A stretch of 64,000 bases of DNA from Pseudoflavonifractor sp. 60 (GTDB taxonomy: Bacteria > Bacillota > Clostridia > Oscillospirales > Oscillospiraceae): positions 1 to 64,000 of the forward strand of contig NZ_QWKI01000057.1 of NCBI RefSeq assembly GCF_009911645.1, written 5' to 3'. The notes below the pieces were generated by a model. That model did no database searches, had not been told where the DNA came from, and was given only the letters and a program-made list of their open reading frames with translations. This document shows positions 6,970 to 61,440 of this stretch, piece by piece; the stretch's first letter is position 1; each line of letters opens with the position of its first letter. A program made the translations under genes and the position numbers.

Positions 6970-7037
6970 CAACCGCCGCCCCTTCGGATTTGACCCCTCA
7001 CGGGGCAGATACCAATCATAAAGGATGGGAACCGCCC

Positions 7038-41271: not shown

Positions 41272-42561
41272 TCACTGAAAGGAGGATGGACCTTCAAATC
41301 TGCCCTCGGACAGCCACTTGGCCACATAGTCGTGGAGGGTCTCCATCGTATTGCCGAACTGACCCTTGAAGGCCTCGCAGTGGTGGGCGGTATGGAACTT
41401 GTGGTTGGCCCCCTCCACAAAGGCGACGTGTTTATCGATGCTGGCGGACATTTCATAAATCGTCTCCGCGGCCAGGAACTCCCACCCGGCGGTCATACCC
41501 ATGAACAGAGAGGGCACATGGATATGCTGGACGTTGCCGGGAGGACAGCAGTAGGTGGAATCCCAGTCGATTCCCCAGACGGAGTCCTCACCGTAGCCGT
41601 AGCTGTCCAGGGTGCGCACCGCGTAGGAGGTCAGGTAGTTGTACACCGTCATAATCCGGGCGCCGTCCATCATGTTGTGGGTCATGGACTCCGGGTTTTC
41701 CGGATGGCGCACGGAGTGAACGATCTCCACGGTGGAACTGCCGTCGGCGTGGATCAGCTCTCTGGGCTGGCGGGTGTGGGACATAAGGCGGATATCCTGG
41801 GCGTAGAGCTTGTTATTGAAGAACACCTGGTTGGCCCCGGGGATGACCAGTGGTTCGTCATCGCTGTAGCGGCCCTCGCCGGCCTGGATCTTTTCCCAGC
41901 ACTCCAGGGCGTGGGCCAGAATCTGATTGTTGCGCTCTCCTTGCTTCCTCTGGAAGCGCCGGATAAATGCGTCGGAAAAGGTGGAGCCCTCCTTTTTAAA
42001 GCCGTTCTCCTTCTCAAAGAGGTTATAGACGGGGTCCAGCTCCATTCCGCTGTCCTCCGAAACCACAGCGGGGTCCAGACTGAACAGCTGCATGGCGGCG
42101 TTGCCCCAGTTGGCGTCCAGCAGCATGAGGCCGTCGGCGGGGGGCAGCGGGGAGCTGTCCGGATAGGGCAGGATCACCTCTGGCCCCTGGAAAATCTGGG
42201 CTCCATTTTCTGCAATGGCCTGATAGGCGGTCATCAGGGTTGCACCTCCGCTGTGGCCCATCAGGATGATCCGGTTGACCCGGGGCAGACTGCGCAGATA
42301 CTCGACGGCCCCCTTCACCGCCTGCATCTTGTCCACCTGGGTAAAAAACAGGCCCTCCTTGACCATCGCATTGGCGCACAGGACCCGGAAGCCCCGCTTA
42401 GCCAGCTGCCGGCCGGTGGGGGCGTCCAGATAGTCCTCGTCGGAGTGCATTACCAGCACGGCGTTCAGGCACTCGCCGTCCCGGCCCGCCGGCTCATAGA
42501 GCACGCCGGGGACCCGCCTTGTAACCCGGAGAAACGTCTCCTTGACTTCGTATTCCTTCAT
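41272..42561 (-). CDS. alpha/beta hydrolase
   Basis: 429 aa, longer than a minimal hydrolase. The nucleophile elbow is GHSGGA (Ser about residue 107) after LPRVNRIILM, with VLVMHSDEDYLDAPTGRQLAKRGFRVL as the oxyanion side and a late His in ANHKFHTAHH. A large cap insertion lies at about 140-330. Its ATG overlaps the MATE stop (ATGA), so the two are translationally coupled. The operon carries the same LysR-type promoter signature as the phloretin-hydrolase-like operon, suggesting an ester or amide of the same compound class. Confidence 0.82.
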   Translation of the reverse strand: MKEYEVKETFLRVTRRVPGVLYEPAGRDGECLNAVLVMHSDEDYLDAPTGRQLAKRGFRVLCANAMVKEGLFFTQVDKMQAVKGAVEYLRSLPRVNRIILMGHSGGATLMTAYQAIAENGAQIFQGPEVILPYPDSSPLPPADGLMLLDANWGNAAMQLFSLDPAVVSEDSGMELDPVYNLFEKENGFKKEGSTFSDAFIRRFQRKQGERNNQILAHALECWEKIQAGEGRYSDDEPLVIPGANQVFFNNKLYAQDIRLMSHTRQPRELIHADGSSTVEIVHSVRHPENPESMTHNMMDGARIMTVYNYLTSYAVRTLDSYGYGEDSVWGIDWDSTYCCPPGNVQHIHVPSLFMGMTAGWEFLAAETIYEMSASIDKHVAFVEGANHKFHTAHHCEAFKGQFGNTMETLHDYVAKWLSEGRFEGPSSFQ

Positions 42562-43982
42562 TTTATGGCCTCCTCCTGCGATTCTTTTATCTCTTCCTCA
42601 TCGATCATCTTAAAGGCTTTGATCGCTAAGGGAATTGCAATAAAGAGACACACCACGTCCGCAATGGCCTGAGCTGAGGCAATGCCCACCTCCTTCAGGA
42701 AGATGGGGGCAATGATTGCCACCGGGATAAAGACATAACCCTGCCGGGCAGTGCTCATGGCCAGGGCGTACTTGGCCTTGCCAATACCGGCGTAGAACAT
42801 GTTGATAATGGAGTTCAGCGCATGGGAGAACAGCATGATACATTGCAGGCGGATACACAGCACACCCAGCCGGAGCACCTCGGCGTCGGCCTGCTTGTTG
42901 AAGATGCTCACGATGGGGGCGGCCAGCAGGACCAGCACCGCGCCGATGCCAATGGCGCCGATGAGGGAGACCTGGATGACAAACTTCAAGCTGTCCCGAA
43001 CCCGCTTGGTCTGCTTGGCCCCCCAGTTGAAGCCGGCGATGGGCTGATAGCCCTGGCCGAAGCCCAGAATGATGGCGAAGGGGAACTCCAGGACCCGGTT
43101 GGCCACCGACAGGGCGGCCAGAGCGGCGGTGGAGTAGCCCCGGGCAACCCGGTTGATGGTGACGTTGGCAATCACGGAGAAGGCGCTGCGGAAGAAGGAG
43201 GTGGAGCCAATGGCCAGCACCTCACGCACATCCTCCATCACCAGCTTAAACTTTTTCAGGCTGATGGTCACCGAGCTGCGGTGCCGGAGGTAGGGCCAGC
43301 ACAGGATGCAGAAGCTGACGGTCTTGGAGATTGCCGTGGCCATAGATGCGCCGGCCACACCCAGGCCCAGTCCCTGAATGCCGAAGAGGCCGGGACCGTA
43401 TTCGCCGCCGTAGATGAACAAGGGGTCCAGGAAGCAGTTGAGTACGCCGCCAAAGCCCATGCCGATCATGGAAAACATGGCGCTGCCTTCACTGCGCAGG
43501 CACATGTTCAAAATGAAGCTGCCCACCATAAAGGGCGCGGCGTACAGCACATAGGTGGCATACTGGATGGAGTAGGCGGCGCAGTTCTCGTCCGCCCCCA
43601 GCAGGTAGACCATGGGCTGAATGCACAGCCGGCCGATGAGCATAAAGAGAATGCCTAGGCCCAGCGCCGAGAACAGAGAGGTGGACAGGACCCGGTTGGC
43701 GTCCTCGTCCCGCTTGGAGCCCAGCAGCCGGGCGATGTAGCTGCACGCGCCCGCGCCAATCAGGGAGCCGATGAGGGTTATGGTGCGCTCCAGGGAGCTG
43801 TTCACGCCCACTGCGGCGGTGGCGTTGGTCCCCAGGGTGCTGACAAAATACGCGTCTACCAGATTATAGACCGTTGTAATCAGCTGCGCCACAATGGTGG
43901 GGACCGCCATTTTGGGCACAAGGGTCCGGATGTCCTCCGTTAACATCATTTGCTTTTTTTCCGCGCTAACCTGTCTTGCCAT
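42558..43982 (-). CDS. MATE-family efflux transporter
   Basis: 474 aa with twelve membrane segments in two related halves (LVPKMAVPTIVAQLITTVYNLVDAYFVSTLG at the start; FGQGYQPIAGFNWGAKQTKRVRDSL in the second half). MATE proteins export drugs and plant or microbial phenolics with Na+ or H+. ATG 43982 has CGGAGGT 8 bases upstream. It is the first gene of a two-gene operon with the alpha/beta hydrolase. Confidence 0.93.
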   Translation of the reverse strand: MARQVSAEKKQMMLTEDIRTLVPKMAVPTIVAQLITTVYNLVDAYFVSTLGTNATAAVGVNSSLERTITLIGSLIGAGACSYIARLLGSKRDEDANRVLSTSLFSALGLGILFMLIGRLCIQPMVYLLGADENCAAYSIQYATYVLYAAPFMVGSFILNMCLRSEGSAMFSMIGMGFGGVLNCFLDPLFIYGGEYGPGLFGIQGLGLGVAGASMATAISKTVSFCILCWPYLRHRSSVTISLKKFKLVMEDVREVLAIGSTSFFRSAFSVIANVTINRVARGYSTAALAALSVANRVLEFPFAIILGFGQGYQPIAGFNWGAKQTKRVRDSLKFVIQVSLIGAIGIGAVLVLLAAPIVSIFNKQADAEVLRLGVLCIRLQCIMLFSHALNSIINMFYAGIGKAKYALAMSTARQGYVFIPVAIIAPIFLKEVGIASAQAIADVVCLFIAIPLAIKAFKMIDEEEIKESQEEAIK

Positions 43983-44044
43983 GGTAGCATACCTCCGTTT
44001 CATCCCAGGGGAGTGTTAACCCTTACATGGTCTGCTTTGCCTTT

Positions 44045-44109
44045 ATTAAATCACACAATTCCAGGTGGAATCAATTCAATTTGTTTAGGGATAGTTTCCA
44101 AAACGGAAA
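44045..44109 (-). promoter_or_regulatory. LysR-type regulated promoter of the MATE/hydrolase operon
   Basis: On the minus strand: the dyad TTTCC-GTTTT-GGAAA (44109-44095), 20 bases, -35 TTGATT (44074-44069), an 18-bp spacer and -10 TTTAAT (44050-44045). The dyad has T-N11-A form and is centred about 64 bases before the predicted start of transcription. The same layout recurs at 51360-51424 and 55681-55744. Confidence 0.75.
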
Positions 44110-44167: not shown

Positions 44168-46168
<2,001 letters not shown>

Positions 46169-46169
<1 letters not shown>

Positions 46170-46693: not shown

Positions 46694-46727
46694 TTAATGT
46701 TCCTTCTTCCTGAAACTTTTGTTATAC

Positions 46728-48554
46728 TTAAGTGGCAAAGCCCGCATATTGAGTCATATAGAGCTCGTAGTATTTGCCTCTGGCGGCCAGCAGACCGGCG
46801 TGGCTGCCCATCTCGGCAATCTGCCCCTGGTCCATAACCACGATGATATCCGCGTCCCGAATGGTGGACAGCCGGTGGGCGATGATGATGCTGGTCCGGT
46901 GCTCCATAATCCGCTGCATGGCCTCCTGAATGGCCCGCTCGGTCTGGGTGTCCACGTTGGAGGTGGCCTCGTCCAGAATCAGGATCTGCGGGTCGGCGGC
47001 AAAGGCCCGGGCAATGGCCAGCAGCTGGCGCTGCCCCTGGCTCAGATTTCCTCCCGCTCCCGTCAGGACGGTATCCAGCCCCTGGGGCAGGCGCTGGACA
47101 AACTCCTGACACCGGCTCATGGCCAGTACAGAGCGCAGCTGCTCCTCTGTGGCGTGTTCATTGCTGTAGGTCAGGTTGTGGCGCACTGTGCCGGCAAAGA
47201 GCACCGTGTCCTGGAGCACAATAGCCATATTCCGGCGGAGACTGTCCAGGCTGACCGCCCCGATGTTCTGCCCGTTGATGGCAATCTCGCCGCTGTCCGG
47301 CTGGTAAAAACGCATCAGCAGATTGACCACCGCTGTCTTTCCGCTGCCTGTGGCCCCCACCAGGGCCACCTTCTTCCCCGATGGAATTTTTAGGGAGAAG
47401 TCCCGCAGCACCGGGCGGCCCGGCTCATAGGAGAAATTCACATGCTGGAAGGAGACCTCCGCAACACCGCGTTCCTCCAGCTTCTGACCGGAGGGGTCCT
47501 CGCCCCTCTCGTCCAGCACATAAAAGACCCGCTCCGCCCCGGCGATGGCGGTTTGCAGCTGGCCGTAGATCTGTGCCAGCTCGTTGATAGGACGGCTGAA
47601 CTGCTTGGCGTAGACGATAAAGGCGGAGATCACTCCCACCGAGATCATGCCCCGGAGGGAAAAGCAGCCCCCCACCGCCGCGATGATGACAAAGCCAGTG
47701 TTGCCGATGCAGTTGGACAGGGGACCCATAATGCCGCTGACAGCGTCCGTCCGGATGCCGGCCCTTGTCATGCTGTCGGACACCTGGGCAAAGTCCGCCG
47801 CCGCCCTCTCCTGGCGGTTGTAGGCTGCCACTGTGCGGTAGCCGGCAATCATCTCCTCTACCTGGCCGTTGAGCCGTCCCAGCAGTTCCTGGCGCTGGCG
47901 GGAGGAGCTACGCACCTTTTTGGACAGAAATTTGGTGACAAGCACTGTCAGCATAATGGTGACCAGGCTGAGCAGGGCCAACTGCCAGCAGTACCACACC
48001 ATGACCGCCGCAGTTCCGATGACAGTCAGGACCCCGGAGCAGAGGGAGGGGAGAGACTGGGTCACGGTGGTGGAGATATTTTCAATGTCGTTGGTCATGC
48101 GGCTCATCAGGTCGCCGTTGGCGTGGGTATCCAGATAGCTCAGGGGCAGATCCACCAGCTTGTCAAAGAGCTCCTGGCGCATCCGCCTGACAATGCTCTG
48201 GCTCAGCCGGGCGCTGAGCAGCCCCTGGACCAGCCGGCTGGCGCTGTACAGCAGATAGGCCCCCAGCATCAGTCCCACGGTGTTTGTCAGGATGCCCTCC
48301 GCCTCGCCGGAGATAATATCAATGGCTCTGCTCTGCAGGCTGGGGGCCCACAGCCCGCACAGTGTACCCAGCACCACCACGGCCAGCATGGCGGCCAGAG
48401 TGGCGCGCTCCCGGGCCAGGTAGGCGGCAATCCGGAGCAGGGTCCCGCCCAAATGCTCCGCGTACTCCACCTGCATGGTCCCCGGCATTCTGCCCGGACC
48501 GCCTCCCGCACCGGGAATGCGGGGCATCTGGGCGGCAGGCTTCATCTCTCTCAC
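46728..48554 (-). CDS. ABC exporter half (canonical ATPase site subunit)
   Basis: 608 aa. Six membrane segments (about 40-330) are followed by an ABC ATPase with Walker A GATGSGKTA, signature NLSQGQRQL, Walker B ILILDEATSNVD with the catalytic Glu, and switch His in IIAHRLST. It is longer at the N-terminus than its partner. The GTG start overlaps the partner's stop (GTGA) and has AGGAGG at 7 bases. With the next entry it forms a heterodimeric exporter of the BmrCD/TM287-288 type. The His-rich gene starts 35 bases later, so the nitrogenase-like genes are likely co-transcribed. Confidence 0.9.
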   Translation of the reverse strand: MREMKPAAQMPRIPGAGGGPGRMPGTMQVEYAEHLGGTLLRIAAYLARERATLAAMLAVVVLGTLCGLWAPSLQSRAIDIISGEAEGILTNTVGLMLGAYLLYSASRLVQGLLSARLSQSIVRRMRQELFDKLVDLPLSYLDTHANGDLMSRMTNDIENISTTVTQSLPSLCSGVLTVIGTAAVMVWYCWQLALLSLVTIMLTVLVTKFLSKKVRSSSRQRQELLGRLNGQVEEMIAGYRTVAAYNRQERAAADFAQVSDSMTRAGIRTDAVSGIMGPLSNCIGNTGFVIIAAVGGCFSLRGMISVGVISAFIVYAKQFSRPINELAQIYGQLQTAIAGAERVFYVLDERGEDPSGQKLEERGVAEVSFQHVNFSYEPGRPVLRDFSLKIPSGKKVALVGATGSGKTAVVNLLMRFYQPDSGEIAINGQNIGAVSLDSLRRNMAIVLQDTVLFAGTVRHNLTYSNEHATEEQLRSVLAMSRCQEFVQRLPQGLDTVLTGAGGNLSQGQRQLLAIARAFAADPQILILDEATSNVDTQTERAIQEAMQRIMEHRTSIIIAHRLSTIRDADIIVVMDQGQIAEMGSHAGLLAARGKYYELYMTQYAGFAT

Positions 48555-50287
48555 AGCAATTCCTCCTCACTCCCCATCTGAGACTGGCAGATATCCTGAT
48601 AGATGGGACAGCACTCCAGCAGCTCCCAGTGGGTACCGCACCCCACGATGGTCCCCCTGTCCATCACGGCAATTCGGTCCGCCCGGCGCACGGTGGCAAT
48701 TCGCTGGGCAATTAAAATCTTGGTACACGACGGCTGGGCGCTGTCCAGAGCGTCGTACAGGGCCGCCTCAGTTTTCAGGTCCAGAGCGCTGGAGGAGTCG
48801 TCAAAAATGAGGAACTCCGACGGCTTCAACACTGCCCGGGCGATGGACACCCGCTGCTTCTGCCCGCCGGACAGGCTGGCCCCCCGCTCCGCCACCGGAG
48901 TGCGGTAGCCCTGGGGGGCGGCCTGGATGAAGTCTGCCGCCTGGGCGGTGCGGGCGGCGGCGGCAATGGCCTCGTCCGAAGCCCCGTCAACTCCCCAGGC
49001 GATGTTCTCCCCCAGGGAGCCGCTGAACAACTCGCTCTTTTGCAGCGCCGCCCCCATCTTATCCCGCAGGGCCCTCTGGTCGTAGCGGCGCACATCCACG
49101 CCATCCACCAGCAGCTCACCTTCAGTCACATCGTAAAAGCGCAGCATCAAATTGACCAAAGTGGATTTTCCGCTGCCGGTGGGGCCGATGATGGCCAGCG
49201 TCTCGCCGGGCTGGACGGTCAAATCAATATGGCGCAGGGCCGGCTGCCGGGAGCCTGGGTAGCAGAAGGAGACATTTCGAAATTCCAGCTTCCCCTGGAC
49301 CTCCGTCTCCCCGTGAAAGCCGCCGTCCGTCAGCGCGGGCTCGCTGTTCAGAATTTCCCGGGCCCGTTTCCAGGAGGCGCAGCCCCGGGAGATGGTCTGG
49401 AAAATCATCACCAGCATCAGGATGCCGTCCAGCAGCTGGGTCGTGTAGGTAATGGCCGCCATCACCATGCCGGGGGTTGCGGCTCCCTGCCCCACCTGGA
49501 CGGAGCCCCTCATCAGAATCACCGCCACGGCCAGGTACATCAAAGCGTTGATGGTGGGGTTCATAAAGGCGAAAATCACTAGAAATTTCAGCTGTATCTT
49601 GATTAACTCCCCATTGGCTTTGCCGAAGCGGAGCTTCTCATAGGTCTCCCGCACGCAGGCCTTGACCACTCGGATGCCTGAAATGTCCTCCTGGAGAATT
49701 CCGTTGACCTGGTCCAGCTGCTCCTGAAGCCGGGAAAACAGGGGATTGGCGGCCCAAATACAGCCAATCAGGCAGGCCAGGATGAGGGGGACGGCACACA
49801 GAACGATGGTACCAAAGGTGGCGCTCAGCCGGTACAGGCAGATCAGACTGCCGAAGGTCAGCATACCGGCCCGGACAACGCCCCGGATAAACTGCCCCAC
49901 CAGCATGGACACCTGGTTTACGTCGTTGGTGACCCGGGTGATGAGGGAGCCAGTGCCGAACCGGTCCATCTGGTCAAAGGAGTAGGACATGATCTTCTGA
50001 AAACAGTCCTTGCGCAGGTCGTTGCCCATGTTCTGGCAGCACATATGAGTAAACACATTGTTCAGCGACCCGGCGGCGCCCCCCAGGACGACCACCAGAA
50101 TCATGACGATTCCCACCCGCAGAATCAACTGCAGGTCACCCAGACCTCCGGTGTTCAGGCCCAGCACGCCGTCGTCCACAATCTGTTTCATCAGGGCGGG
50201 CTGATACAGGTCGGCCAGGACCTCCCCCACCATAAACAGCGCGGCGATAACGGCAAAATGGCAATACCGCTTAATATATCTCCACAC
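48551..50287 (-). CDS. ABC exporter half (degenerate ATPase site subunit)
   Basis: 578 aa with six membrane segments and an ABC ATPase: Walker A GPTGSGKST, signature SLSGGQKQR, but Walker B ends IFDDSSS (Asp in place of the catalytic Glu) and the switch His is Gln (IAQRIAT). This marks the degenerate-site partner of heterodimeric exporters. It is the first gene of the minus-strand operon. The GTG start follows GGAGGC. Substrate unknown; multidrug-type family. Confidence 0.9.
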   Translation of the reverse strand: MWRYIKRYCHFAVIAALFMVGEVLADLYQPALMKQIVDDGVLGLNTGGLGDLQLILRVGIVMILVVVLGGAAGSLNNVFTHMCCQNMGNDLRKDCFQKIMSYSFDQMDRFGTGSLITRVTNDVNQVSMLVGQFIRGVVRAGMLTFGSLICLYRLSATFGTIVLCAVPLILACLIGCIWAANPLFSRLQEQLDQVNGILQEDISGIRVVKACVRETYEKLRFGKANGELIKIQLKFLVIFAFMNPTINALMYLAVAVILMRGSVQVGQGAATPGMVMAAITYTTQLLDGILMLVMIFQTISRGCASWKRAREILNSEPALTDGGFHGETEVQGKLEFRNVSFCYPGSRQPALRHIDLTVQPGETLAIIGPTGSGKSTLVNLMLRFYDVTEGELLVDGVDVRRYDQRALRDKMGAALQKSELFSGSLGENIAWGVDGASDEAIAAAARTAQAADFIQAAPQGYRTPVAERGASLSGGQKQRVSIARAVLKPSEFLIFDDSSSALDLKTEAALYDALDSAQPSCTKILIAQRIATVRRADRIAVMDRGTIVGCGTHWELLECCPIYQDICQSQMGSEEELL

Positions 50288-50423: not shown

Positions 50424-51338
50424 TCAGCTCTGTTCCAATGTTTTCTCCTTGCTGATGGTTTGCTTCAGATATTTTCGGAAGGTTTTACAGGCGGCCGGCA
50501 TCTGCTTGCTGCTCAAATACAGCGCATAGATATGGGACTGCACCGGTGGGGTCAGCTCTGCCCAGAAGATGCCCTCTGCGTCCTCGGGGATGTGGTCCCG
50601 GTGGAGAATGGCGATCCCCTGCTCCTGGCTGACCATCTTCACGATGGTGGAAATGGAGGAGATATTGGCCGCCACCAGCGGCTTGAAGCCCGCCGATTTG
50701 CACAGCTGCACGAATTTCCGGCTCTCCAGGTGCATCTCTCCGCTGGAATTGCGGTGCAGAATGAACCGCTCCCCCCGGATCTGGTCGATTGTCACCTTGT
50801 GGAGCGCGGCCAGGGGGTGGGACACAGGGAACACCGCAACCAGCCTGTCCACCTTATACAGCAGCCGGGTCATGCGGTCGTCCATGGCGTCGTTCTCCAT
50901 GGCAAAGACGAAATCGCACTTCTGGCTCACCAGCAGCTCCACCACGTGGGGCTGTTCTGTGATTTCCATCTGATACTGGGGGTGCTGCCGGGAAAAGTCG
51001 GAGAGGACCTCCACCCCGCCGTAGTGGACCAGGGCCGGCGTCAGGGCGATGCGCACAATATTCTCCCCGTGGGAGAGCATGGTGCTGATGGCGGCGTTGG
51101 ACTGCTCATAGAGCTCGGCCATTTTCTTCGCATAGGGGTAATAGGCCCGGCTGTACTCGTTCAGCTCCACGGAGCGGGTAGAGCGGTCGAACAGGGAGAC
51201 CCCCAGTTCATCCTCCAGCTTGTGGATGTGCTTGGTGAGGGCGGACTGAGAAATATTCATCCGCTCTGAGGTCTCCTGAAAGCTCTGCGTCTCCACCAAG
51301 GAGACAAATTCCTGCAATAATTTCAGTTCCATCTCCAC
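50424..51338 (-). CDS. LysR-family regulator, proposed controller of a three-operon regulon
   Basis: 304 aa. The winged HTH is at the N-terminus (ETQSFQETSERMNISQSALTKHIHKLEDELGVSLFDR); the effector domain follows (IVRIALTPALVHYGGVEVL, LLVSQKCDFVFAM, SQEQGIAILHRDHIPE). The start is GTG 51338 or ATG 51332; the ribosome site cannot decide. It is divergent from the DAPG-hydrolase-like operon, whose promoter carries TTTCC-N5-GGAAA centred at about -64. The same dyad precedes the Dpp-type and MATE operons, so this protein is the best candidate activator of all three (inference). Confidence 0.88.
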   Translation of the reverse strand: MEMELKLLQEFVSLVETQSFQETSERMNISQSALTKHIHKLEDELGVSLFDRSTRSVELNEYSRAYYPYAKKMAELYEQSNAAISTMLSHGENIVRIALTPALVHYGGVEVLSDFSRQHPQYQMEITEQPHVVELLVSQKCDFVFAMENDAMDDRMTRLLYKVDRLVAVFPVSHPLAALHKVTIDQIRGERFILHRNSSGEMHLESRKFVQLCKSAGFKPLVAANISSISTIVKMVSQEQGIAILHRDHIPEDAEGIFWAELTPPVQSHIYALYLSSKQMPAACKTFRKYLKQTISKEKTLEQS

Positions 51339-51359: not shown

Positions 51360-51424
51360 TTTCCCGCCTGGAAAAAATTATAGATAAAATCGAATTGATT
51401 GTCAAGTCATCTAACAATTATAAT
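51360..51424 (+). promoter_or_regulatory. LysR-type regulated promoter of the hydrolase/symporter operon
   Basis: Dyad TTTCC-CGCCT-GGAAA (51360-51374), 20 bases, -35 TTGATT (51395-51400) within a conserved GAATTGATT, an 18-bp spacer and consensus -10 TATAAT (51419-51424). The dyad is T-N11-A, centred about 64 bases before the predicted transcription start, and lies between the divergent LysR gene and its likely target. Confidence 0.8.
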
Positions 51425-51479: not shown

Positions 51480-52361
51480 ATGTTTATTCAGGTAGATAAA
51501 GAGACCTTCCCTACGGAAGACAGCAGCGTCATCAATGTCCGGCAGAAGCTTTTTCCCGAGGAGGAAAAAATGCCTCTGGTCAAGTACTTTTACAAGTACC
51601 CCCTCCACTACCCCACGCCGGTGGAGATGCAGATCATCAACACTATGAATCCCATTCCCGTGGAGGACGCCATCCAGCCTGAAAACTTCATGTCTCTGCT
51701 CAAGCCCTACGGCTATGACAAGTACGAGCTGGGCTACTGCATGTTCCCCGACGGCTCCGGCTATGTGGCCACCTACCGGGTCCGCCCGCCCCACATTACC
51801 GCCGAGATGGAGCGCTGGTACCGCAACTGGCGGAACCTGAAATCCAAGAGCATGGTCCCCGGCCACGGCAACCTGCGCTACAAGATCTGGAACTACGCCG
51901 ACCACTTCGACCACTACTACGTGAACTGGAAGAACGGCTCAGACGGCATCCACACCACAGAGAGCCTGGATTTGGGGGCTGGCGACCGGATGTACGACAC
52001 CATCCGGCACGAGTTCCCCCTGTCCGACTTCGGCATGACCGACCAGTGGATGGCTGAGCTAAAGGCGGCGGGCTGCCAGCTCACCAGCCACGGCTCCTAC
52101 GAGACCTTCGACGAGCCGGGAACCCACCTGTGCCTGAGCTACTCCCGCCCCTGCCCCCAGGGCGGCGTGGAGACCCGCAGCCGGGAGTGGATCGGCTGGC
52201 GGCCCGAGAACGGCAAGCTGGTCCGGGACCCCGCCACCAAGTGTGACCTGGACTACCTGAAAAAGGTGGTCATCCACACTCTGGTGGAGTGGGAGCACCT
52301 GTACACCTTCCTGCCCGAGCTGTACGCCGAGTACAAGGATCAGCCCATGGACGCCGACTGA
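51480..52361 (+). CDS. DAPG/phloretin hydrolase family protein, copy 1
   Basis: 293 aa, the length of PhlG and phloretin hydrolase (PF18089 type). These zinc enzymes cut the C-C bond between an acyl group and a phloroglucinol ring. Candidate zinc ligands shared with the second copy are the His of DHFDH (142/145), E161 in ESLDLGAG, and the H266-x3-E270 pair. NLRYKIWN and SRPCPQGG are further shared blocks. GGAGGAG precedes the ATG. It is the first gene of an operon with a GPH symporter, an SDR and a paralogue. The substrate is inferred only from the family. Confidence 0.85.
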   Translation: MFIQVDKETFPTEDSSVINVRQKLFPEEEKMPLVKYFYKYPLHYPTPVEMQIINTMNPIPVEDAIQPENFMSLLKPYGYDKYELGYCMFPDGSGYVATYRVRPPHITAEMERWYRNWRNLKSKSMVPGHGNLRYKIWNYADHFDHYYVNWKNGSDGIHTTESLDLGAGDRMYDTIRHEFPLSDFGMTDQWMAELKAAGCQLTSHGSYETFDEPGTHLCLSYSRPCPQGGVETRSREWIGWRPENGKLVRDPATKCDLDYLKKVVIHTLVEWEHLYTFLPELYAEYKDQPMDAD

Positions 52362-52405: not shown

Positions 52406-53848
52406 ATGAAAATGGCAGCACCACAAGCGACACGGACTCTGCGGCCATTCGGTCTGCGGGACCAGTTCGGTTATCTGGCCGGCAACTTCGCCGGCGACTT
52501 TACATACACCCTGTGTACCGGCTTCATGATGAAGTTTTACACCGACGTTTTGGGTGTATCCGCTGTTATTGTCGGTCTGGCTATGACGGTGGCGCAAATC
52601 CTGGACGCCGTTACCGACCTGGGCATGGGCCAGATCTGCGACCGTGCCCCTACCACTGAGCAGGGCAAGTTCCGCCCCTGGATCCGCCGGATCGCCGGTC
52701 CCGTCTCCCTCATCAGCTTCCTGATGTACGCAAGCTGGATCAAAGAAGCGCCCATGACATTGAAAATCGTGTGGCTGTTCGTCACCTATCTACTCTACTC
52801 CAGCGTGTTCTACACCATGATTATCATCCCCTACGGTTCCATGGCCTCCGCCATGTCCAACGACGCTCTGGACCGGACTAAGCTGTCTAACTGGCGGCAC
52901 GTGGGCGGAACCCTGGCAGTCACCGTTATCAACTTTATTGTTCCCCTGGTGGTCTATGTGGACGCCACCAACCCCGATGGCTCCCTAATCCTGAACGACG
53001 CGGGCGAGGTAATCCAGAGCCTGAACGGCACCAGAATGATGCTCTGCGGTTTGGTGTTCTCCATACTCTCCTTTGTTCTGTGGATGGTCTGCTACTTTAT
53101 GACCACTGAGCGGGTCAAAATCCCCTCAAAGAACGAGAAATTGAATATCGGTGCGTTTATCAACAACCTGTTCCACAACCGGGGCCTGATTGCAATCGTC
53201 CTGCTGATTATCGTACAGGAGTGCTCCAACAGCGCCTTCCACCGCATGAGCGGATATATGTTTGACAACTACTTCCGCCAGGGCAAGATGCAGGCCATTA
53301 CCAGCCCGGTAGAGACCATTATCACACTGGTCATTGCGGCCTGTATCGTCAAAATTGTGGCCAAGGTGGGCAAGAAAGAGATCACTGTTACCGGCTGCCT
53401 GATCTCCGCCGCCGTGTTCGCCATTGCCTTTGTGATGCACACCAGCAATGTCTACAGCTGGCTTGTCATTTATGGCGGCGTCACTGTGGGCCTGGCCCTG
53501 TTTAACCCCGTCACCTTCGCTCTGGTCACTGACATTGTGGACGACGAGGAGGTCCGCACCGGCAACCGGATGGACGGCACCATCTATAGTGTCTACAGCT
53601 TCGGCCGGAAGTTCGGCAGCGCCCTGTCCTCCGGCGTCACCGGTATGATGCTGTCTATCATCGGCTATGACAGCGCCCCCGACAAGTATGCTCCCAGCCT
53701 GACTGACGGGATCTACAACATCTCCTGTGTTGTCCCTCTGATCGGCTTCGTGCTGATGGCCCTGATCGTCGGCGTACTCTATCCGCTGAACAAGAAGCGG
53801 GTCGACTCCAACGTGGCCATTTTGAAGGAGCGCCACGGCGGCGAATAA
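52406..53848 (+). CDS. GPH-type (glycoside-pentoside-hexuronide):cation symporter, MFS
   Basis: 480 aa with twelve membrane segments. The GPH signatures are present: FGYLAGNFAGDFTYTL, DAVTDLGMGQICDRAPTTEQGKFRPWI in the first half, and DIVDDEEVRTGNRMDGTIYSVYSFGRKFG in the second. Members take up sugars and glycosides with H+ or Na+; in this operon the cargo may be an aromatic glycoside or a related compound. It lies 44 bases after the first hydrolase gene and 33 bases before the SDR gene. Confidence 0.9.
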   Translation: MKMAAPQATRTLRPFGLRDQFGYLAGNFAGDFTYTLCTGFMMKFYTDVLGVSAVIVGLAMTVAQILDAVTDLGMGQICDRAPTTEQGKFRPWIRRIAGPVSLISFLMYASWIKEAPMTLKIVWLFVTYLLYSSVFYTMIIIPYGSMASAMSNDALDRTKLSNWRHVGGTLAVTVINFIVPLVVYVDATNPDGSLILNDAGEVIQSLNGTRMMLCGLVFSILSFVLWMVCYFMTTERVKIPSKNEKLNIGAFINNLFHNRGLIAIVLLIIVQECSNSAFHRMSGYMFDNYFRQGKMQAITSPVETIITLVIAACIVKIVAKVGKKEITVTGCLISAAVFAIAFVMHTSNVYSWLVIYGGVTVGLALFNPVTFALVTDIVDDEEVRTGNRMDGTIYSVYSFGRKFGSALSSGVTGMMLSIIGYDSAPDKYAPSLTDGIYNISCVVPLIGFVLMALIVGVLYPLNKKRVDSNVAILKERHGGE

Positions 53849-53881
53849 AGCCCCAAAATCTCAATTAAAGGAGTGAATCCT

Positions 53882-54691
53882 ATGCTGACATTAAAAGGAA
53901 GGACCATGATTATCACCGGCGGCGCAGGCCACAACGGGATGAGGGTTGTGGAGATGGCCCTGGAGAACGGCATGAACGTGGCCCTGATGAGCGGCTTCCA
54001 CGCCAAGGCCCAGAAGGCCATTCAGGAGCTGCTGGAGCGCCGCCCGGAGTTTGAGGGCCGTGTCATCGGCTACGCCCAGAATCCTCAGGCCAAGCTGGAG
54101 TGGAACATGGAGGCGGCCCCGGAGATCTACAAGCCCGACTCCAAAATGGCCGACGTCCACCACTGGATTTTCGAGAAATTCGGCAGCATCGACGTGGTGG
54201 TCAACGCCAAGGGGGGCCACGTCCCCTGCACCATGGAGCAGACCGACAAGACCATCTGGGCCCATTCCATGGAGGTGGTGGAGTCCGCCTTTGTCAACGT
54301 GAAGCTGGCCCTGCCCTACCTGGAGAAGAGCAAAGCCCCCCGGGTCATCAACATGACCAGCTGCGACGGACGCCACGGCGGCTGGCGGTGCGACCCTGCC
54401 TTTGCGGCAGCCCGGGGCGGTCTGGAGACCATGACCTACGAGATGGCCAAGGAGCTGGGGCCCAAGGGCATCACCTGCAACATCGTTCTTCTGGGCCACA
54501 TCGAGAATGACGTGCCTCCGGAGACGACCCTCACCGACGAGGCCCGGGCCGCACTGTTGGCCCGCACTCCCATCGGCCGCCTGGGCCAGCCCCAGGACGT
54601 GGTGGCAGCGGTGGAGTTTTTGGCCAGCGAGGAGGCCGGATTTGTCAACGGCGCCCGCATCGACGTCAACGGCGGCTTTGTCGTGGGTTAA
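53882..54691 (+). CDS. short-chain dehydrogenase/reductase without the Tyr-Lys catalytic pair
   Basis: 269 aa. The Rossmann cofactor motif is TGGAGHNG (about 12-19), followed by VVNAKGG and the helix block AKELGPKGITCNIVLLG, as in 3-oxoacyl-ACP-reductase-like SDRs. The catalytic Ser region reads MTSCDG, but the YxxxK motif is replaced by FxxxR (PAFAAARGGLE). It may not be an ordinary dehydrogenase, or may use another acid. AAAGGAG precedes ATG 53882. It is encoded between the symporter and the second hydrolase. Confidence 0.85.
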   Translation: MLTLKGRTMIITGGAGHNGMRVVEMALENGMNVALMSGFHAKAQKAIQELLERRPEFEGRVIGYAQNPQAKLEWNMEAAPEIYKPDSKMADVHHWIFEKFGSIDVVVNAKGGHVPCTMEQTDKTIWAHSMEVVESAFVNVKLALPYLEKSKAPRVINMTSCDGRHGGWRCDPAFAAARGGLETMTYEMAKELGPKGITCNIVLLGHIENDVPPETTLTDEARAALLARTPIGRLGQPQDVVAAVEFLASEEAGFVNGARIDVNGGFVVG

Positions 54692-54706: not shown

Positions 54707-55588
54707 ATGGAACTGATTACCGAAAACTGTATGCCCCATATCAAGGTCCCCGAGCTCTCCCCTGAGGAGAAGGCTCTGCCCTCCTCCTGCTTCTACACCG
54801 ACTACCCCCTATATCCCCCCAATCCCCTCCAGCAGCAGATTTTAGACGCCGGCCCCATGCGGGTTGAGGACGCCATCCCGGTGGAGCACTGGCTGGACTG
54901 GCTCCAGCCCCACGGCTACCCCAGGGTTGTCTACGGCTACACCATGATGCCCGACGGCTCCGGGTTCTACATCGAGTACTCTGTCACGCCCCCCACCTGG
55001 AAATCCGCCTGGCGGCGGTGGTACGGCAAGTGGTACAACCAGTACTCCAGGAGCATGAAGGGCAAGAAGCTGGGCAATCTGCGCTACAAAATCTGGAATC
55101 CCATCGACCACTGGGACCACAGGTTTATCAACGGCGAGAACGACAAGGACGGCGTCTGGTCCCTGGAGACCCTGGACCTGGGTGCGGGCGGCGATCCCAG
55201 CTGCGGCATTCCCGCCATCTCCCACCAGATCAATTTGCGGGACTACGGCCTCACCGCGGAGAAGCAGCGGGAGCTGGAGGAGGCCGACTGCCGGGCCGAG
55301 GCGGTCTACGAGGAGTTCTTCGACCAGGACGGCAATCAGCTGCCTGGCCACCACCTGGTGCTGCGGTTCAGCCGCCCCTGCCCCCTGGGCGGCCGGGAGA
55401 GTCTCAACTGCGAGTGGATGGGCTGGTACCCCAGGGACGGCAAAATTGTCCGGGACCCGGACACGCCGGTGGACGAGACCTACCTGAAAAATGTCATAAC
55501 CCACAATACCATTGAGCGGGCCCACCTGCTCCAGGTGCTGCCCGATTTGTACGAGGCCTACAAGGACCTCCCCATGGATGAGGACTGA
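54707..55588 (+). CDS. DAPG/phloretin hydrolase family protein, copy 2
   Basis: 293 aa, same length as copy 1 and clearly paralogous but diverged. Conserved positions are DHWDH (135/138), E154 in ETLDLGAG, H266-x3-E270, NLRYKIWN, FSRPCPLGG, and the ending YKDLPMDED (copy 1: YKDQPMDAD). The N-terminal 50 residues differ most. The gene begins 15 bases after the SDR stop with AAAGGAGG. The two copies may act on different acyl-phenols or form a mixed oligomer. A terminator follows. Confidence 0.85.
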   Translation: MELITENCMPHIKVPELSPEEKALPSSCFYTDYPLYPPNPLQQQILDAGPMRVEDAIPVEHWLDWLQPHGYPRVVYGYTMMPDGSGFYIEYSVTPPTWKSAWRRWYGKWYNQYSRSMKGKKLGNLRYKIWNPIDHWDHRFINGENDKDGVWSLETLDLGAGGDPSCGIPAISHQINLRDYGLTAEKQRELEEADCRAEAVYEEFFDQDGNQLPGHHLVLRFSRPCPLGGRESLNCEWMGWYPRDGKIVRDPDTPVDETYLKNVITHNTIERAHLLQVLPDLYEAYKDLPMDED

Positions 55589-55680: not shown

Positions 55681-55744
55681 TTTCCGTTTTGGAAAATAAC
55701 ACTCCAGGAACAGAATTGATTCAAGGAAGCCGTTTTTATAAAAT
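55681..55744 (+). promoter_or_regulatory. LysR-type regulated promoter of the Dpp-type ABC operon
   Basis: Dyad TTTCC-GTTTT-GGAAA (55681-55695), 20 bases, -35 TTGATT (55716-55721) in GAATTGATTC, a 17-bp spacer and -10 TAAAAT (55739-55744). The dyad sequence is identical to the one upstream of the MATE gene. It is centred about 63 bases before the predicted start of transcription. Confidence 0.78.
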
Positions 55745-55802: not shown

Positions 55803-57446
55803 ATGAAAAAAGCACTTGCCTTGCTGCTGGCTGCGGCCATGTCTCTCAGCCTGGCCGCCTGCGGCGGCAATGGTGGAACCAGTGCCGGCAACACCGGCGG
55901 CGATGGCTCCAAGTCCATGCCTGGACTGGACACCGGAAGTGTGGCGACTGCCATGGACACGGCGGCAGAATCCGTCACCGTTGCGGTGGACGACGACTCC
56001 TTCACCATTGGCCCCTGGGGCAGCGACAGCGCCGTCCGGGACTGGACCGAGACCATCCTGTGGACCCACCTGGCCTACCGTCCCTTTATCGGCGCCGCCT
56101 TTGAGGCCGGCGAGCTGGAGCTGGTTGCTGCCAAGAGCGTAAATGCAGTGGACAGCACTACCTATGAGGTAGAGATCTACGACAACATCGTGGACAGCGC
56201 GGGCAACGCCATCAAAGCCTCCGACGTGGTATTCAGCTATGACAAGCTGGCCGAGCTGGGCTATGTCACCGAGATCAGCACCTACTACAGCAGCGCCGAG
56301 GCCACCGGCGACTACACCCTGACCATCAACCTCAAGAGCGACACCGAGGGCGCCATTGAGGAAGTCCTCTGCGGCTGCTCCATCGCCAGCGAGTCCTGGT
56401 ACACCAGCGCTTCTCAGGACGAAATTGAGAAGAACCCCGCCACCACCGGCCCTTACACCGTGGAGAACATGGAAATCGGCGCGTCCCTGACCATGGCCGC
56501 CAAGGACAACTACTGGAAGACCAGCGATTTGACCACGGTTGAGCTGCAAAATGTGAAGAAGATCAACCTGAAGTGCATCACCGAGGCCTCCATGCGCTCC
56601 GTGGCCCTGGAGAATGGCGAGGTGGATATGGCCGAGATCGCCGCCTCTGACGTCAGCCGTTTTGAGAGCGGCAGCGACTACAATATCACCCGCTATATGA
56701 ACGCCATGTCCCAGTACCTGATTTACAACACCAGCGAGAACTCCCCCATGCACGACGTCAACGTCCGCCGGGCCGTCTCCTACGCCACCGACTCCCTCAC
56801 TGTGATGATGGGCGGCGGCAGCGACGCCTGTGTGGTCAGCCACGACGTGGCCCCCAACAAGGGCCCTGACTACGTGCAGGATTGGGACAATCAGTCCTAC
56901 TTCGAGCAGGACCTGGACAAGGCCGCCGAGTGCCTGGCCGCCGCCGGCTACAAGCCCGGTGAGCTGAAGCTGAAGATCCTGACCTCCGCCCAGGCCCCCC
57001 AGGGCCCCTACGTGGCCCTCCAGGCCATGCTTCAGGAGGCCGGCATCGAGCTGGAGATTATGGCTCTGGACCGGGCCGCCCGCATGGGCGTTCAGAACGA
57101 CCCCACCGTGTGGGATATCGCCGAGTACTCCGACGTGGTGACCGACTTTACGACCCACTTCTGGAGCAACCTGTTTAACGAGGACAACTACCCCGGCCAG
57201 GGTACCCAGGGCTTTACCCTGGACCCCGAGCTCCAGCGCCTGCTGAAGGCCGCCATGTCTGACCGCAGCGAGGAGAACATGAACGCCTTCCACAACTACG
57301 TGGTTGAGAACTGCTACATGTATGGCCTGTACACCGAGATCCGCTCCATTGTCACCACCAAGGGCCTGACCAACGTGTGTATGCAGAAGGAGAACCCCGT
57401 GCTCAACGCCATGACCTTTACCGGCGATTACGTGCCCGCCGTGTAA
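55803..57446 (+). CDS. peptide/nickel-type ABC substrate-binding lipoprotein (SBP_bac_5)
   Basis: 547 aa. A lipoprotein signal MKKALALLLAAAMSLSLAAC (Cys 20) is followed by a Gly/Ser linker and the family 5 binding fold (YNTSENSPMHDVNVRRAVSYATD, LDKAAECLAAAGYKPGELKLKIL, LQAMLQEAGIELEIMALD). AAAGGAGG precedes ATG 55803. Family 5 proteins bind oligopeptides, but also opines, sugars and other organic ligands. The LysR-type promoter shared with the phloretin-hydrolase-like operon suggests a related small molecule here. Confidence 0.88.
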   Translation: MKKALALLLAAAMSLSLAACGGNGGTSAGNTGGDGSKSMPGLDTGSVATAMDTAAESVTVAVDDDSFTIGPWGSDSAVRDWTETILWTHLAYRPFIGAAFEAGELELVAAKSVNAVDSTTYEVEIYDNIVDSAGNAIKASDVVFSYDKLAELGYVTEISTYYSSAEATGDYTLTINLKSDTEGAIEEVLCGCSIASESWYTSASQDEIEKNPATTGPYTVENMEIGASLTMAAKDNYWKTSDLTTVELQNVKKINLKCITEASMRSVALENGEVDMAEIAASDVSRFESGSDYNITRYMNAMSQYLIYNTSENSPMHDVNVRRAVSYATDSLTVMMGGGSDACVVSHDVAPNKGPDYVQDWDNQSYFEQDLDKAAECLAAAGYKPGELKLKILTSAQAPQGPYVALQAMLQEAGIELEIMALDRAARMGVQNDPTVWDIAEYSDVVTDFTTHFWSNLFNEDNYPGQGTQGFTLDPELQRLLKAAMSDRSEENMNAFHNYVVENCYMYGLYTEIRSIVTTKGLTNVCMQKENPVLNAMTFTGDYVPAV

Positions 57447-57577: not shown

Positions 57578-58543
57578 ATGACACGCTATATCATCAAGCG
57601 GCTGCTGATTATGATTCCCCTGCTCATTGCGGTGGGCGTCATCATGTACACCCTGATGGAATTTGTCCCCGGCGACCCTGTGGACATTGTGTTTAACACC
57701 GGCTTCCACACGGAGGAGGAGAAGGATTTGATGCGGGAGGCCATGGGGCTGAACCGGCCCTTTGTGGTGCGGCTGGGGGAGTATATCGGCGGCGTCTTCC
57801 TGCACTTTGACTTCGGCACCAGCCTGCTGGACGGCACCAGCATCAAAACCGCCCTGCTGAACCGCTTCCCCAATACCCTGTATATCGCCATCTTCAGCAT
57901 CCTGCTGACCGTTGTGGTGGGCCTGCCTCTGGGCATCTATACGGCGGTCCACGCCAACAGCCTGGGGGATAAGGTGTCGCTGTTTGTCACGCTGCTGTTC
58001 GACTGTATGCCCAGCTTCTGGACAGCCCTGCTGCTGGTACTGCTGTTTTCGGTGAAGCTGAAATGGCTTCCGTCCTCGGGCAACGACTCGCTGAAATTCT
58101 TCATCCTGCCCACCCTGGCCAACTCCCTGGGCGGACTGGCCGGCTTCACCCGGCAGGTTCGGGCCAGTATGCTGGAGGTCATCCGCTCCGACTATGTCAC
58201 CACCGCCCGTTCCAAGGGTCTGCCGGAGCATGATGTGGTGTACGGCCACGCCCTGCCCAACGCCCTGATCCCCATCCTGACGGTGGTGGGTATGCGCTTT
58301 GGCAGTATGCTGGGGGGCGCCACCATCGTGGAGGTGATCTTCTCCATCCCCGGCATCGGCCAGTACCTGGTCAACGCCATCAACGGCCTGGACTATACCG
58401 CCGCCACCGGCAGCATTATCTTCATCGCTTTCACCTTCTCCGTCATTATGCTGCTGACCGACCTGCTGTACGCCTACGCCGACCCCCGCATCAAGGCCCA
58501 ATACACCGCTTCCAGCAGAAAGAAGGTGCCCGCAAATGGCTGA
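57578..58543 (+). CDS. ABC transporter permease (DppB/OppB type)
   Basis: 321 aa. The N-terminus MTRYIIKRLLIMIPLLIAVGVIMYTLMEFVPGDP is typical of DppB-type permeases; the EAA-like loop is YVTTARSKGLPEHDVVYGHALPNALIPI. Six membrane segments. GAAAGGAGAGG precedes the ATG. Its end overlaps the next gene by 8 bases, so the pair is translationally coupled. Confidence 0.92.
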   Translation: MTRYIIKRLLIMIPLLIAVGVIMYTLMEFVPGDPVDIVFNTGFHTEEEKDLMREAMGLNRPFVVRLGEYIGGVFLHFDFGTSLLDGTSIKTALLNRFPNTLYIAIFSILLTVVVGLPLGIYTAVHANSLGDKVSLFVTLLFDCMPSFWTALLLVLLFSVKLKWLPSSGNDSLKFFILPTLANSLGGLAGFTRQVRASMLEVIRSDYVTTARSKGLPEHDVVYGHALPNALIPILTVVGMRFGSMLGGATIVEVIFSIPGIGQYLVNAINGLDYTAATGSIIFIAFTFSVIMLLTDLLYAYADPRIKAQYTASSRKKVPANG

Positions 58544-59489
58544 ACTGTTGAAGGAAAAAACCGAAAAAAAGAATCCCGAGCACGGACACGGCGGCTATCA
58601 CAAGGGTGAGAACAGACACCGCCACGGAAGAAAGCCGGAGAGCTTAAAGCCGGGCTCCCTGAAATATGTTTGGAACAGCGTCTCCCACAACAAAAGCGCT
58701 GTCATCGGCATGGTCCTGCTGGCAGCCATTGTGATTCTGTGCATCCTCTCCCCCTACATCTGTCCCTGGCCCTACTCCAAGATGAACATGCCCCACGCCT
58801 ATCAGGGGCCCAACCTGACCCATCTGCTGGGCACCGACCACATCGGTCGTGACCTGCTCTCCCGTGTGCTCTACGGCGCCCGGTACACCCTGATTATTGG
58901 CATCACCGCCACCGTCATCTCCGCCGTGCTGGGTATTCTGATGGGGGCCATTGCCGGCTACTTCGGCGGCTTCATCGACTCCTGCCTCATGCGTTTCCTG
59001 GACATCTTCCAGGCCTTCCCCACCCTGATCCTGGCTATGGCCTTCTGCGCCATCTTCGGCAAGGGGGTTGACAAGTGTATCTGGGCCCTGGGCATCACCG
59101 GCATTCCCGGCTTTGCCCGGCTCATGCGGGCCAACATCCTGCGGGTCGTCAACATGGAGTACATTGAGGCCGCCCGGACTATCAACTGCCCCACCTGGCG
59201 GATCATCGCCCAGCACATCATCCCCAACGCTATCTCCCCCATTATCGTGGAGATCGCCATGACCGTCAGCCGCAACGGCCTGACTTCCTCCTCCCTCAGC
59301 TTCCTGGGTATGGGGGTCCAGGAGCCCAAGCCGGAGTGGGGCGCCATGCTGTCCGCCTCCCGGGATTTTATCCGGGACTACCCCCACATGGTGATTGCCC
59401 CCGGCATCTTCATCGTCATCACTGTGCTCAGCTTCAACCTGATTGGCGACGCTTTCCGGGACGCGCTGGACCCCAAGTTCAAGGATTGA
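58536..59489 (+). CDS. ABC transporter permease (DppC/OppC type)
   Basis: 317 aa. A charged His/Lys-rich N-terminal tail of about 45 residues (EHGHGGYHKGENRHRHGRK) precedes the first membrane segment, longer and more His-rich than in typical DppC. HLLGTDHIGRDLLSRVLYGAR and the EAA loop YIEAARTINCPTWRIIAQHIIPNAISPI are family hallmarks. It pairs with the preceding permease. Confidence 0.92.
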   Translation: MAELLKEKTEKKNPEHGHGGYHKGENRHRHGRKPESLKPGSLKYVWNSVSHNKSAVIGMVLLAAIVILCILSPYICPWPYSKMNMPHAYQGPNLTHLLGTDHIGRDLLSRVLYGARYTLIIGITATVISAVLGILMGAIAGYFGGFIDSCLMRFLDIFQAFPTLILAMAFCAIFGKGVDKCIWALGITGIPGFARLMRANILRVVNMEYIEAARTINCPTWRIIAQHIIPNAISPIIVEIAMTVSRNGLTSSSLSFLGMGVQEPKPEWGAMLSASRDFIRDYPHMVIAPGIFIVITVLSFNLIGDAFRDALDPKFKD

Positions 59490-59502
59490 AGGAGGAAGTC
59501 AT

Positions 59503-60477
59503 ATGAGTGAAAACAAAACTGCGCTGTTTTCCGTCCGCGACCTGGTGGTGGAGTACCACTCCGGCCAGTCCATCATCCACGCGGTCAACGGCGTCTCCTT
59601 CTCCCTGGGGGTCGGCGAGACCCTGGGCCTGGTGGGGGAGACCGGAGCGGGCAAGACCACCATCGCCAAGGCGGCTCTGCGCATTCTCCCCGACCACTCG
59701 GTGGAGCGGGTAGGCGGCGAGATCCTGTTTGAGGGAAAAAATGTCCTGGATATGGGCGACGCCGAGCTGCGGGACCTGCGGGGCAAGAAAATCTCCATGA
59801 TCTTCCAGGACCCCATGACCGCCCTGAACCCGGTAAAGACGGTCATCTCCCAGATCGCAGAGGGCTATAAAATCCACCACAACTGCTCCAAGGCGGAGGC
59901 CAACCAGCAGGCCATCAAAATGCTGGAGATGGTGGGCATCGGCGCCGACCGGGCCGACGAGTACCCTCACCAGTTCTCCGGCGGCATGAAGCAGCGGGTC
60001 GTCATCGCCCTGGCCCTGGCCTGCTCCCCCCAGCTGCTCATTGCGGACGAGCCCACCACCGCCCTGGATGTCACCATCCAGGCCCAGGTACTGGACCTGA
60101 TTAAGGGCCTGCGCAACGAATTGGGTACGGCTATGATCCTGATCACCCACGACTTGGGCATTGTGGCCGACGTGTGCGACTATGTGTGCGTCATCTACGC
60201 CGGCCGCATCATCGAGAGCGGCACCAAGGAGGACATCTTCGACAACCCCGCCCACCCCTACACCAAGGGTCTGTTCGCCGCCCTGCCCGACCTGGACAAG
60301 AATGTCCGGCGGCTGTCTCCCATCGAGGGCCTGCCCCCCGACCCCTCCCAGGTGCGCGACGAGTGCGACTTCTACCAGCGATGCCCCCACAGGTGCGACA
60401 AGTGCCTGGCCTATGACCGGGAGATGATCGAGCTCAGCCCGGGACACTTTTCCAGATGCTGGAGAACGGAGGAATGA
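59503..60477 (+). CDS. ABC transporter ATP-binding protein (DppD/OppD type)
   Basis: 324 aa. Walker A is GETGAGKTT, Walker [13 protein letters not shown], the signature region [16 protein letters not shown], and the switch His lies in LITHDLG. The C-terminal oligopeptide-transport domain has the Cys cluster [17 protein letters not shown], which in OppD-type proteins can bind a [4Fe-4S] cluster. GAAGGAGG precedes ATG 59503. The next gene follows after 3 bases. Confidence 0.93.
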
Positions 60478-60480
60478 GCA

Positions 60481-61440
60481 ATGGCCCCGCTAATCGAGGT
60501 AAAGAACCTGAAAAAGTATTTTAAAAGCGCAGCCGGCATGGTCCATGCGGTGGATGACATCTCCTTTTCCATTGAGGAGGGCGAGACTGTGGGCCTGGTG
60601 GGTGAATCGGGCTGCGGCAAGTCAACTCTGGGCCGTACGCTGATTCATCTGAATGAGAGCACTGGTGGACAGATCCTGTACAGGGGTCAGGACGTAACCA
60701 AGCTGAACAAGAAGCAGCTGGTGGACTTCCGCCGGGACGTGCAGATGATTTTCCAGGACCCCTTCTCCTCCCTGGACCCCCGGCAGACCGTGCAGGATAT
60801 CATCGAGGAGCCCATCCGCCTGACCGGCAGGCTGAGTAAGGGGGAGCTGAAGGAGAAGGTCATCGACCTGATGGACACTGTGGGCATTGAGAAGCGCCTG
60901 CGGATGAGCTATCCCCACGAGCTGGACGGCGGCCGCCGCCAGCGGGTTGGGATCGCCCGGGCCCTGGCCCTGGACCCCAAGTTTATTGTCTGCGATGAGC
61001 CGGTATCCGCCCTGGATGTGTCCATTCAGGCCCAAATCCTGAACCTGCTCATGGACCTTCAGGAGACCCGGGGGCTGACCTACTTGTTTATAACCCACGA
61101 CATGTCGGTGGTCAAGCACATCTCCAACCAGATCTGCGTCATGTATCTGGGCCAGATGGTGGAAAAGGCGGAGAAGGAGGAGCTGTTTGCCCGGCCCCTC
61201 CACCCCTACACCAAGGCGCTCCTCTCCGCCATCCCCACAACGGACATTCATCACCAGAAAAAACGTATCCTGCTCAAAGGTGAAATCAAATCCCCCATCA
61301 ACCCCGGCCCCGCCTGCCGCTTTGCCTCCCGGTGTATCTACGCCAACGAGAGTTGCCAGCAGGGCGCCCGCCTGCATGAAGTCTCCCCGGGCCACTTCGT
61401 GGCCTGCAACAGGGTTGACGAGATCAACAAGGACGCATAA
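60481..61440 (+). CDS. ABC transporter ATP-binding protein (DppF/OppF type)
   Basis: 319 aa. Walker A is GESGCGKST and Walker [13 protein letters not shown]. The signature reads [16 protein letters not shown], so the usual LSGGQ is LDGGR, a known variation in OppF-like proteins. The tail holds [18 protein letters not shown], the second Cys-rich oligopeptide domain. It completes the five-gene importer. A hairpin (61443-61471) follows. Confidence 0.92.

Follow-up and report, generated by a model that had tools for sequence, protein, structure and literature searches.

The GltC box of Bacillus subtilis has the sequence ATCTC-N5-GAGAT. The promoter sites described here resemble this box in that the two dyad arms are 5 bp apart and the presumed regulator belongs to the LysR family, whereas the arm sequence, the target genes and the likely ligand are different. 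According to the BsrA paper, LysR-type promoters follow a rule in which a T-N11-A recognition site near -65 is combined with an activation site at -35/-10 (PMC8407307). Compared with such two-site promoters, the sites reported here share a T-N11-A dyad near -64, a conserved block over the -35 and a divergent regulator gene; they differ in that AAAnnGAATTGA is strongly conserved across genera and that several units share one fixed register. On the metabolic side, phloretin hydrolase and tannase both feed the phloroglucinol route in gut anaerobes, and in Clostridium scatologenes and other species a transcriptional regulator lies beside the genes for phloroglucinol degradation (PMC10470551). TanR of Lactobacillus plantarum is a putative tannase regulator (PMC8004764). 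Compared by description only, both systems are similar to the present locus: in the first, a regulator and a major-family transporter adjoin phloroglucinol-route genes, and in the second, a putative regulator is linked with tannase and gallate-decarboxylase genes. The descriptions used give neither a regulator family nor an operator for the first system, and neither a family nor a binding site for TanR. A regulator-and-operator pair for phloretin hydrolase or tannase in gut Clostridia was not found in the literature searched, which covered few subscription journals.

The window is a stretch of 64,000 nucleotides from Pseudoflavonifractor sp. 60. Its features are collected in Table 1. TTTCC-N5-GGAAA-N17-GAATTGATT occurs without mismatch at 51360-51400 and 55681-55721 on the plus strand and at 44109-44069 on the minus strand, and every copy precedes a gene start. 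The sequence-only reading had described the dyad 17 bases before GAATTGATT in three promoters, with a -10 at 17-18 bp from TTGATT and a T-N11-A dyad centred at about -63 to -64. These claims were borne out. All three copies were exact, and none of 100 shuffles held three layout matches (mean 0.00). The distances from TTGATT to the -10 were 18, 17 and 18 bp for the 51360, 55681 and 44109 copies. With the transcription start assumed 7 bp past the -10, the dyad centres fell at about -64, -63 and -64, and T-N11-A near -65 was present in all three. One copy had also been placed beside the LysR gene; the adjacency stands, but the gene probably starts at the ATG at 51332, which has GGGAG upstream, rather than at the GTG at 51338.

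The LysR protein scored above the cut-off for both HTH_1 (65.2 bits) and LysR_substrate (111.1 bits). The first hydrolase reached 75.6 bits to PF18089 against a gathering score of 22.7. By sequence, its nearest solved relatives are phloretin hydrolase (5xe5/5xey) and PhlG (3hwp), with E-values from 1e-9 to 4e-7; it is distant from both, and its 28.7 bits to the PhlG equivalog NF047887 are under the cut-off of 600. The short-chain dehydrogenase at 53873-54691 might conceivably be a phloroglucinol reductase. The protein at 41272-42561 had no Pfam, NCBIfam or PDB sequence match. Its homologue adjoins a MATE gene in a genome of another genus of the family (G033) as well, and a 44% identical homologue is found in G276. 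Between the LysR gene and the MATE operon, a minus-strand block at 44168-50287 encodes two ABC exporters together with a NifH-like protein, which scores 432.5 bits to TIGR01287 against a cut-off of 394, and an Oxidored_nitro-type partner. This block is kept in the relatives L013 and L014, and the window scan found no layout copy of its own in it.

Table 1. Genes and promoter elements of the window (forward-strand coordinates).
Feature	Position	Strand	Remarks
MATE transporter	42558..44003	-	
Hydrolase-like protein (so called in the sequence-only reading)	41272..42561	-	Homologue in G033 (53% identity) likewise lies behind the layout
LysR-type regulator with HTH_1 and LysR_substrate domains (recognition helix SQSALTKHIHKLE; gene start probably 51332)	50424..51338	-	
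DAPG/phloretin-hydrolase-family enzyme (PF18089)	51480..52361	+	Pfam
GPH-type symporter	52406..53848	+	
Short-chain dehydrogenase (SDR)	53873..54691	+	
Second DAPG/phloretin-hydrolase-family enzyme (PF18089)	54707..55588	+	Pfam
SBP_bac_5 protein, opens the Dpp-type importer operon	55803..57446	+	
Importer permeases and ATPases (DppB, C, D, F-like)	57578..61440	+	57578-58543 and 60481-61440 by Pfam; middle two by translation
Dyad TTTCC-N5-GGAAA of the divergent LysR/hydrolase promoter, a putative recognition site for LysR	51360..51374	+	Kept in L013, L014, L015
AAA-nn-GAATTGATT, a putative activation site that shares bases with the -35 TTGATT (51395-51400)	51387..51400	+	
-10 TATAAT, 18-bp spacer	51419..51424	+	
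Dyad before substrate-binding protein / Dpp-type importer	55681..55695	+	Kept in L013, L015
GAATTGATT, -35 / proposed activation site; AAA reads GAA here	55713..55721	+	
-10 TAAAAT, 17-bp spacer	55739..55744	+	
Dyad before MATE/hydrolase operon	44095..44109	-	Kept in L013
GAATTGATT, -35 / proposed activation site	44069..44077	-	
-10 TTTAAT, 18-bp spacer	44045..44050	-	

In the whole 4.38-Mb genome, the exact 41-bp layout has no copy outside the three of the window, and allowing up to 3 mismatches added a single match, with 3 mismatches. The bare dyad was found at 3 exact places in the window and at 14 in the genome, against 5 for the reversed control. Since the dyad by itself is not rare, the information is carried by the combined layout. 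A 63-bp form with one fixed -10 spacing was sought in 391 Clostridia genomes and matched solely the window's 55682 site; this form is blind to the two remaining sites of the window, whose spacers are 18 bp, and the list was without any genome of the G033 genus. Could the layout be a product of chance, or a repeat copied from promoter to promoter? The 5-bp dyad spacer is identical in two of the three window copies, which counts in its favor, yet the linkers and flanks vary among the copies, the shuffles yield nothing and the 63-bp form is confined to its own genome. We consider this explanation ruled out, at a negligible probability, by the shuffles, the genome scans, the conservation in relatives, the G033 cluster and the site alignment.

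The relative scan returned three relatives of the cluster. In L013, a Lawsonibacter MAG whose LysR is 87% identical, the gene order is kept over 18.9 kb. The LysR of L014 is 73% identical, and the sequence ends before the other two promoters. L015 is a close and nearly identical MAG with a contig that ends inside the LysR gene. The sequence-only reading was staked on the dyad spacing being kept in related genomes, and it is kept at all covered sites: 3/3 in L013, 1/1 in L014 and 2/2 in L015, and also in G033. At the divergent site of L014 the 5-bp spacer is altered while both arms and the register are intact. The motif columns were identical at 19/19 in each of the four L013 and L014 comparisons, against 227/304 for the remaining columns within the 95-bp stretches. 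Restricted to the three L013 promoters, the figures were 57/57 and 177/228 (Fisher p = 3e-6). The layout was present in none of the nine same-genus genomes sampled, which indicates that the cluster is accessory in its genus.

The scan proposed in the sequence-only reading, with the layout in its TTGATT form, was carried out on 400 genomes of the family. Four genomes matched, its own included; the other three (G219, G042 and G015) had one match each. In G219:C10 (L048, 9157), an exact dyad with TTGATT in register lies behind a LysR gene and before a URO-D-like gene. In G042:C55 (L049, 8559), an exact dyad with TTGATT in register lies before an amidohydrolase gene, and the G033 cluster has an amidohydrolase from this Pfam family as well. 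The more relaxed TTCC-N5-GGAA-N19-AATTGA gave 22 matches in 18 of the 400 genomes, against 2 in the reversed control, both in G238. Eleven matches have a G before AATTGA, three of them in the own genome. The other eight include G070 and a G100 match that falls inside an ORF. The eleven matches with A, C or T at this position had no LysR gene in 6.5-12 kb and were dropped as likely chance, their genes not being individually checked. An exact layout at 5338 of L091 (G222:C181) lies between a LysR gene with recognition helix SKYI and an AcnX/URO-D-like unit.

A scan of five genomes with up to 2 mismatches gave 66 layout matches against 3 for the reversed control, which probably understates the background at 2 mismatches. 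Twenty-one matches and a pair on contig C217 of the window's own genome (G000) were assigned to loci, leaving 43. The alignment of 23 sites described below contains 17 of the 66, and four were placed later, on C76 (G033), C119 (G186), and C88 and C83 (G124). In the own genome, 13 two-mismatch matches stand outside the assigned set. The C217 pair (L129, 6413 on the minus and 7659 on the plus strand) consists of two near-identical degenerate copies that flank a LysR gene at 6433-7386, the product of which falls outside the LysR clade described below.

The densest group of sites was found in G033. Contig C65 of this genome carries three LysR paralogs 36, 33 and 30% identical to the window LysR, one of which (63863-64732) contains an in-frame TAG. 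It also carries two genes related to the window hydrolase, at 43-44% and 32-33% identity, of which the former was confirmed as PF18089, and a homologous SDR-hydrolase-MATE unit, with 72% identity for the MATE and 53% for the hydrolase-like protein. Between 40 and 110 kb of C65 there are ten sites with up to 3 mismatches, nine of them at 57.0-82.8 kb; the tenth (109441) was dropped as no -10 was seen. All nine promoters, spread over 26 kb, are in register, and each lies 67-121 bp before a candidate start codon. Behind them are two SBP_bac_1 proteins, a lipoprotein with a sub-threshold match only, an EstA_Ig_like esterase, an M24 peptidase, the SDR unit, a protein of 440 aa that matched nothing in Pfam, and the two hydrolases. 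The cluster at 57-83 kb (L050, L125 and L051) includes lipoproteins and esterases. With up to 2 mismatches, G033 holds 24 layout matches, 8 of which are inside the C65 stretch (binomial p about 1e-11, for an interval set by the sites themselves). The reversed control gave no match in G033, and it probably understates the background because many matches elsewhere are unassigned.

To describe the promoter architecture, 23 chosen sites, 18 of them non-redundant, were aligned. When spacers of 14 to 21 bp were tried, the best -10 lay at 17 bp in 16 of the 23 sites, at 18 bp in six and at 19 bp in one, and it matched TATAAT in at least 5 of 6 positions in 20 of the 23. T-N11-A was present in 17 of the 18 non-redundant sites. 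AATTGA was present in all 18, which is partly a result of selection. The A residues of an AAA at columns 27-29 were found in 16, 14 and 15 of the 18; these columns and the -10 were outside the search pattern. Because of the conserved AAA block before GAATTGA we read AAAnnGAATTGA as a putative activation site, and GAATTGA probably combines this role with that of the -35.

On the observed sites, their register and conservation, and their ties to one LysR clade and to polyphenol-hydrolase genes, we propose a LysR-type regulon with this element as its operator-promoter, at a probability of about 0.85; that the LysR protein binds there, whether it activates and what it senses are inferred. A LysR tetramer would anchor one dimer on TTTCC-N5-GGAAA, centred at about -64, and its second dimer on AAAnnGAATTGA, some 30 bp (three helical turns) downstream, where it would overlap the -35 of a sigma-A-type promoter. 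Binding of a polyphenol-derived ligand would reposition the LysR protein and turn transcription on. The LysR of the window would thereby control the hydrolase-symporter-SDR-hydrolase, the Dpp-type importer and the MATE-hydrolase units. It probably controls itself as well, because the dyad lies about 22 bp before the LysR start.

TTGATT and TTGAAC are weaker -35 sequences than TTGACA. This bears on a different sign of control, in which the LysR protein mainly represses, or does so in its unliganded state until the ligand lifts the repression. The sign of control cannot be read from the layout, and the -10 and the spacers are good enough for some unaided transcription. The weakness of the -35, TTGATT or TTGAAC, argues against repression, as does the placement of a second site over the -35, which is the activation layout described in the BsrA paper (PMC8407307). 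We regard repression as rather unlikely and favor activation.

Which regulator binds the layout was approached through all 52 LysR-type genes of the window's genome (G000) and G033, collected with E up to 1e-5. A layout copy with up to 2 mismatches lay within 450 bp of four of the five LysR genes with an [ST]KH[IV] recognition helix and of one of the 47 others (Fisher p = 9e-5). A K-[HY] rule noted before the test gave 4/6 and 1/46 (p = 3e-4). The helix rule came from the four positive proteins, so that the test is not independent for them and the information lies in the near-absence elsewhere. In a FastTree tree, for which support values were not reported, the four layout-flanked KH LysRs share one clade with G196, G061 and G033:C44. 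The last is the fifth KH LysR and has same-helix relatives in G186, G235 and G124. A KH-helix LysR is present in all four genomes of the G033 genus. Adjacent copies of the layout were not found for the KH-clade LysRs of G061 (L062) and G033:C44, nor for the G186 and G235 relatives of the latter; in G196 the layout is, by eye, one base off register. Judged from these sequences, the layout is a feature of the regulator clade, not solely of the window cluster.

Some regulator other than the adjacent LysR could bind the layout, and the tannase-family promoters in G235 (C8), G186 (C13) and G033 (C84 and C77) indeed have no nearby LysR gene in the loci read. Against this stand the LysR genes that adjoin the layout in the window, L013, L014, the three G033 paralogs, G222 and G124, the tie to the KH-helix clade with its representative in every G033-genus genome, and T-N11-A near -65, the LysR-type rule of PMC8407307. 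We consider another regulator improbable. From gene position and the link with one LysR clade, the layout is most likely bound by a LysR-type regulator.

The family scan, which was blind to gene content, led to G033-genus promoters before tannase-family genes, including one subtype B tannase. The genes behind the sites in G235, G033 and G186 are loci of the subtype B tannase family (NF041556), and the G235 tannase reached 393.7 bits against the curated cut-off of 300. The four G033-genus genomes contain 16 tannase-family loci, some of them partial, and the layout with 0-2 mismatches lies upstream on the coding strand in eight. Six of the 16 exceed the NF041556 cut-off, five of these with the layout; the remaining three layout loci are below it. 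A -10-like hexamer was seen in all eight layout-bearing loci, scored in five and identified by eye in L216, L217 and L229. In two of the eight (L220 and L230) an open frame covers the site, and the start is therefore assumed to be further down. The tannase site of G235 is the sole exact match in that genome and is on a different contig from the KH-helix LysR, an arrangement consistent with action in trans. The KH-helix LysR gene of G124 is directly followed by a site with 2 mismatches. Next comes a UbiD-type hydroxyaryl-decarboxylase-like gene, which is cut by the locus end and reaches 430.7 bits to NF041204, below the cut-off of 650. The window's own genome has no tannase-family match. Within the stretches read, no site precedes the hydrolases of about 50% identity in G090, G194, G134 and G276 (in L052 and L054-L056 only the exact dyad was sought).

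The polyphenol link, as we propose it, rests on the sites before tannase genes. The same layout before polyphenol enzymes in related bacteria probably marks one shared polyphenol-response switch, and the best reading is that the regulon controls the breakdown of acylphloroglucinols and gallotannins. A LysR regulon could instead sense something other than a polyphenol, for example a peptide or a sugar derivative taken up through the Dpp or GPH transporters. The transporters are generic, the sequence cannot reveal a ligand, and the units in G222 (AcnX/URO-D-like) and G219 (URO-D-like) point the same way, the G222 layout suggesting use outside polyphenol hydrolysis. On the other side, the sites precede phloretin-hydrolase-family genes, tannases and the G124 hydroxyaryl-decarboxylase-like gene. 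A ligand of another kind is a serious though less probable option, and the polyphenol reading is preferred.

The regulon prediction is supported by these analyses: the two-part LysR promoter is of a kind already known, and its operator layout appears unusually strict and portable. We give an even chance to a broader proposal for the Oscillospiraceae, in which one LysR clade ([ST]KH[IVM]), through a two-part operator that is almost invariant and merges with the -35, would govern entry into the phloroglucinol pathway from acylphloroglucinols, through the phloretin-hydrolase family, and from gallotannins, through tannase, together with importers and efflux. The layout would move with its regulator between genera and could be used to find targets on other contigs. 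With the promoter layout, genes responsive to dietary polyphenols may be predicted directly, among them some that have no known function, for example the gene at 41272-42561.
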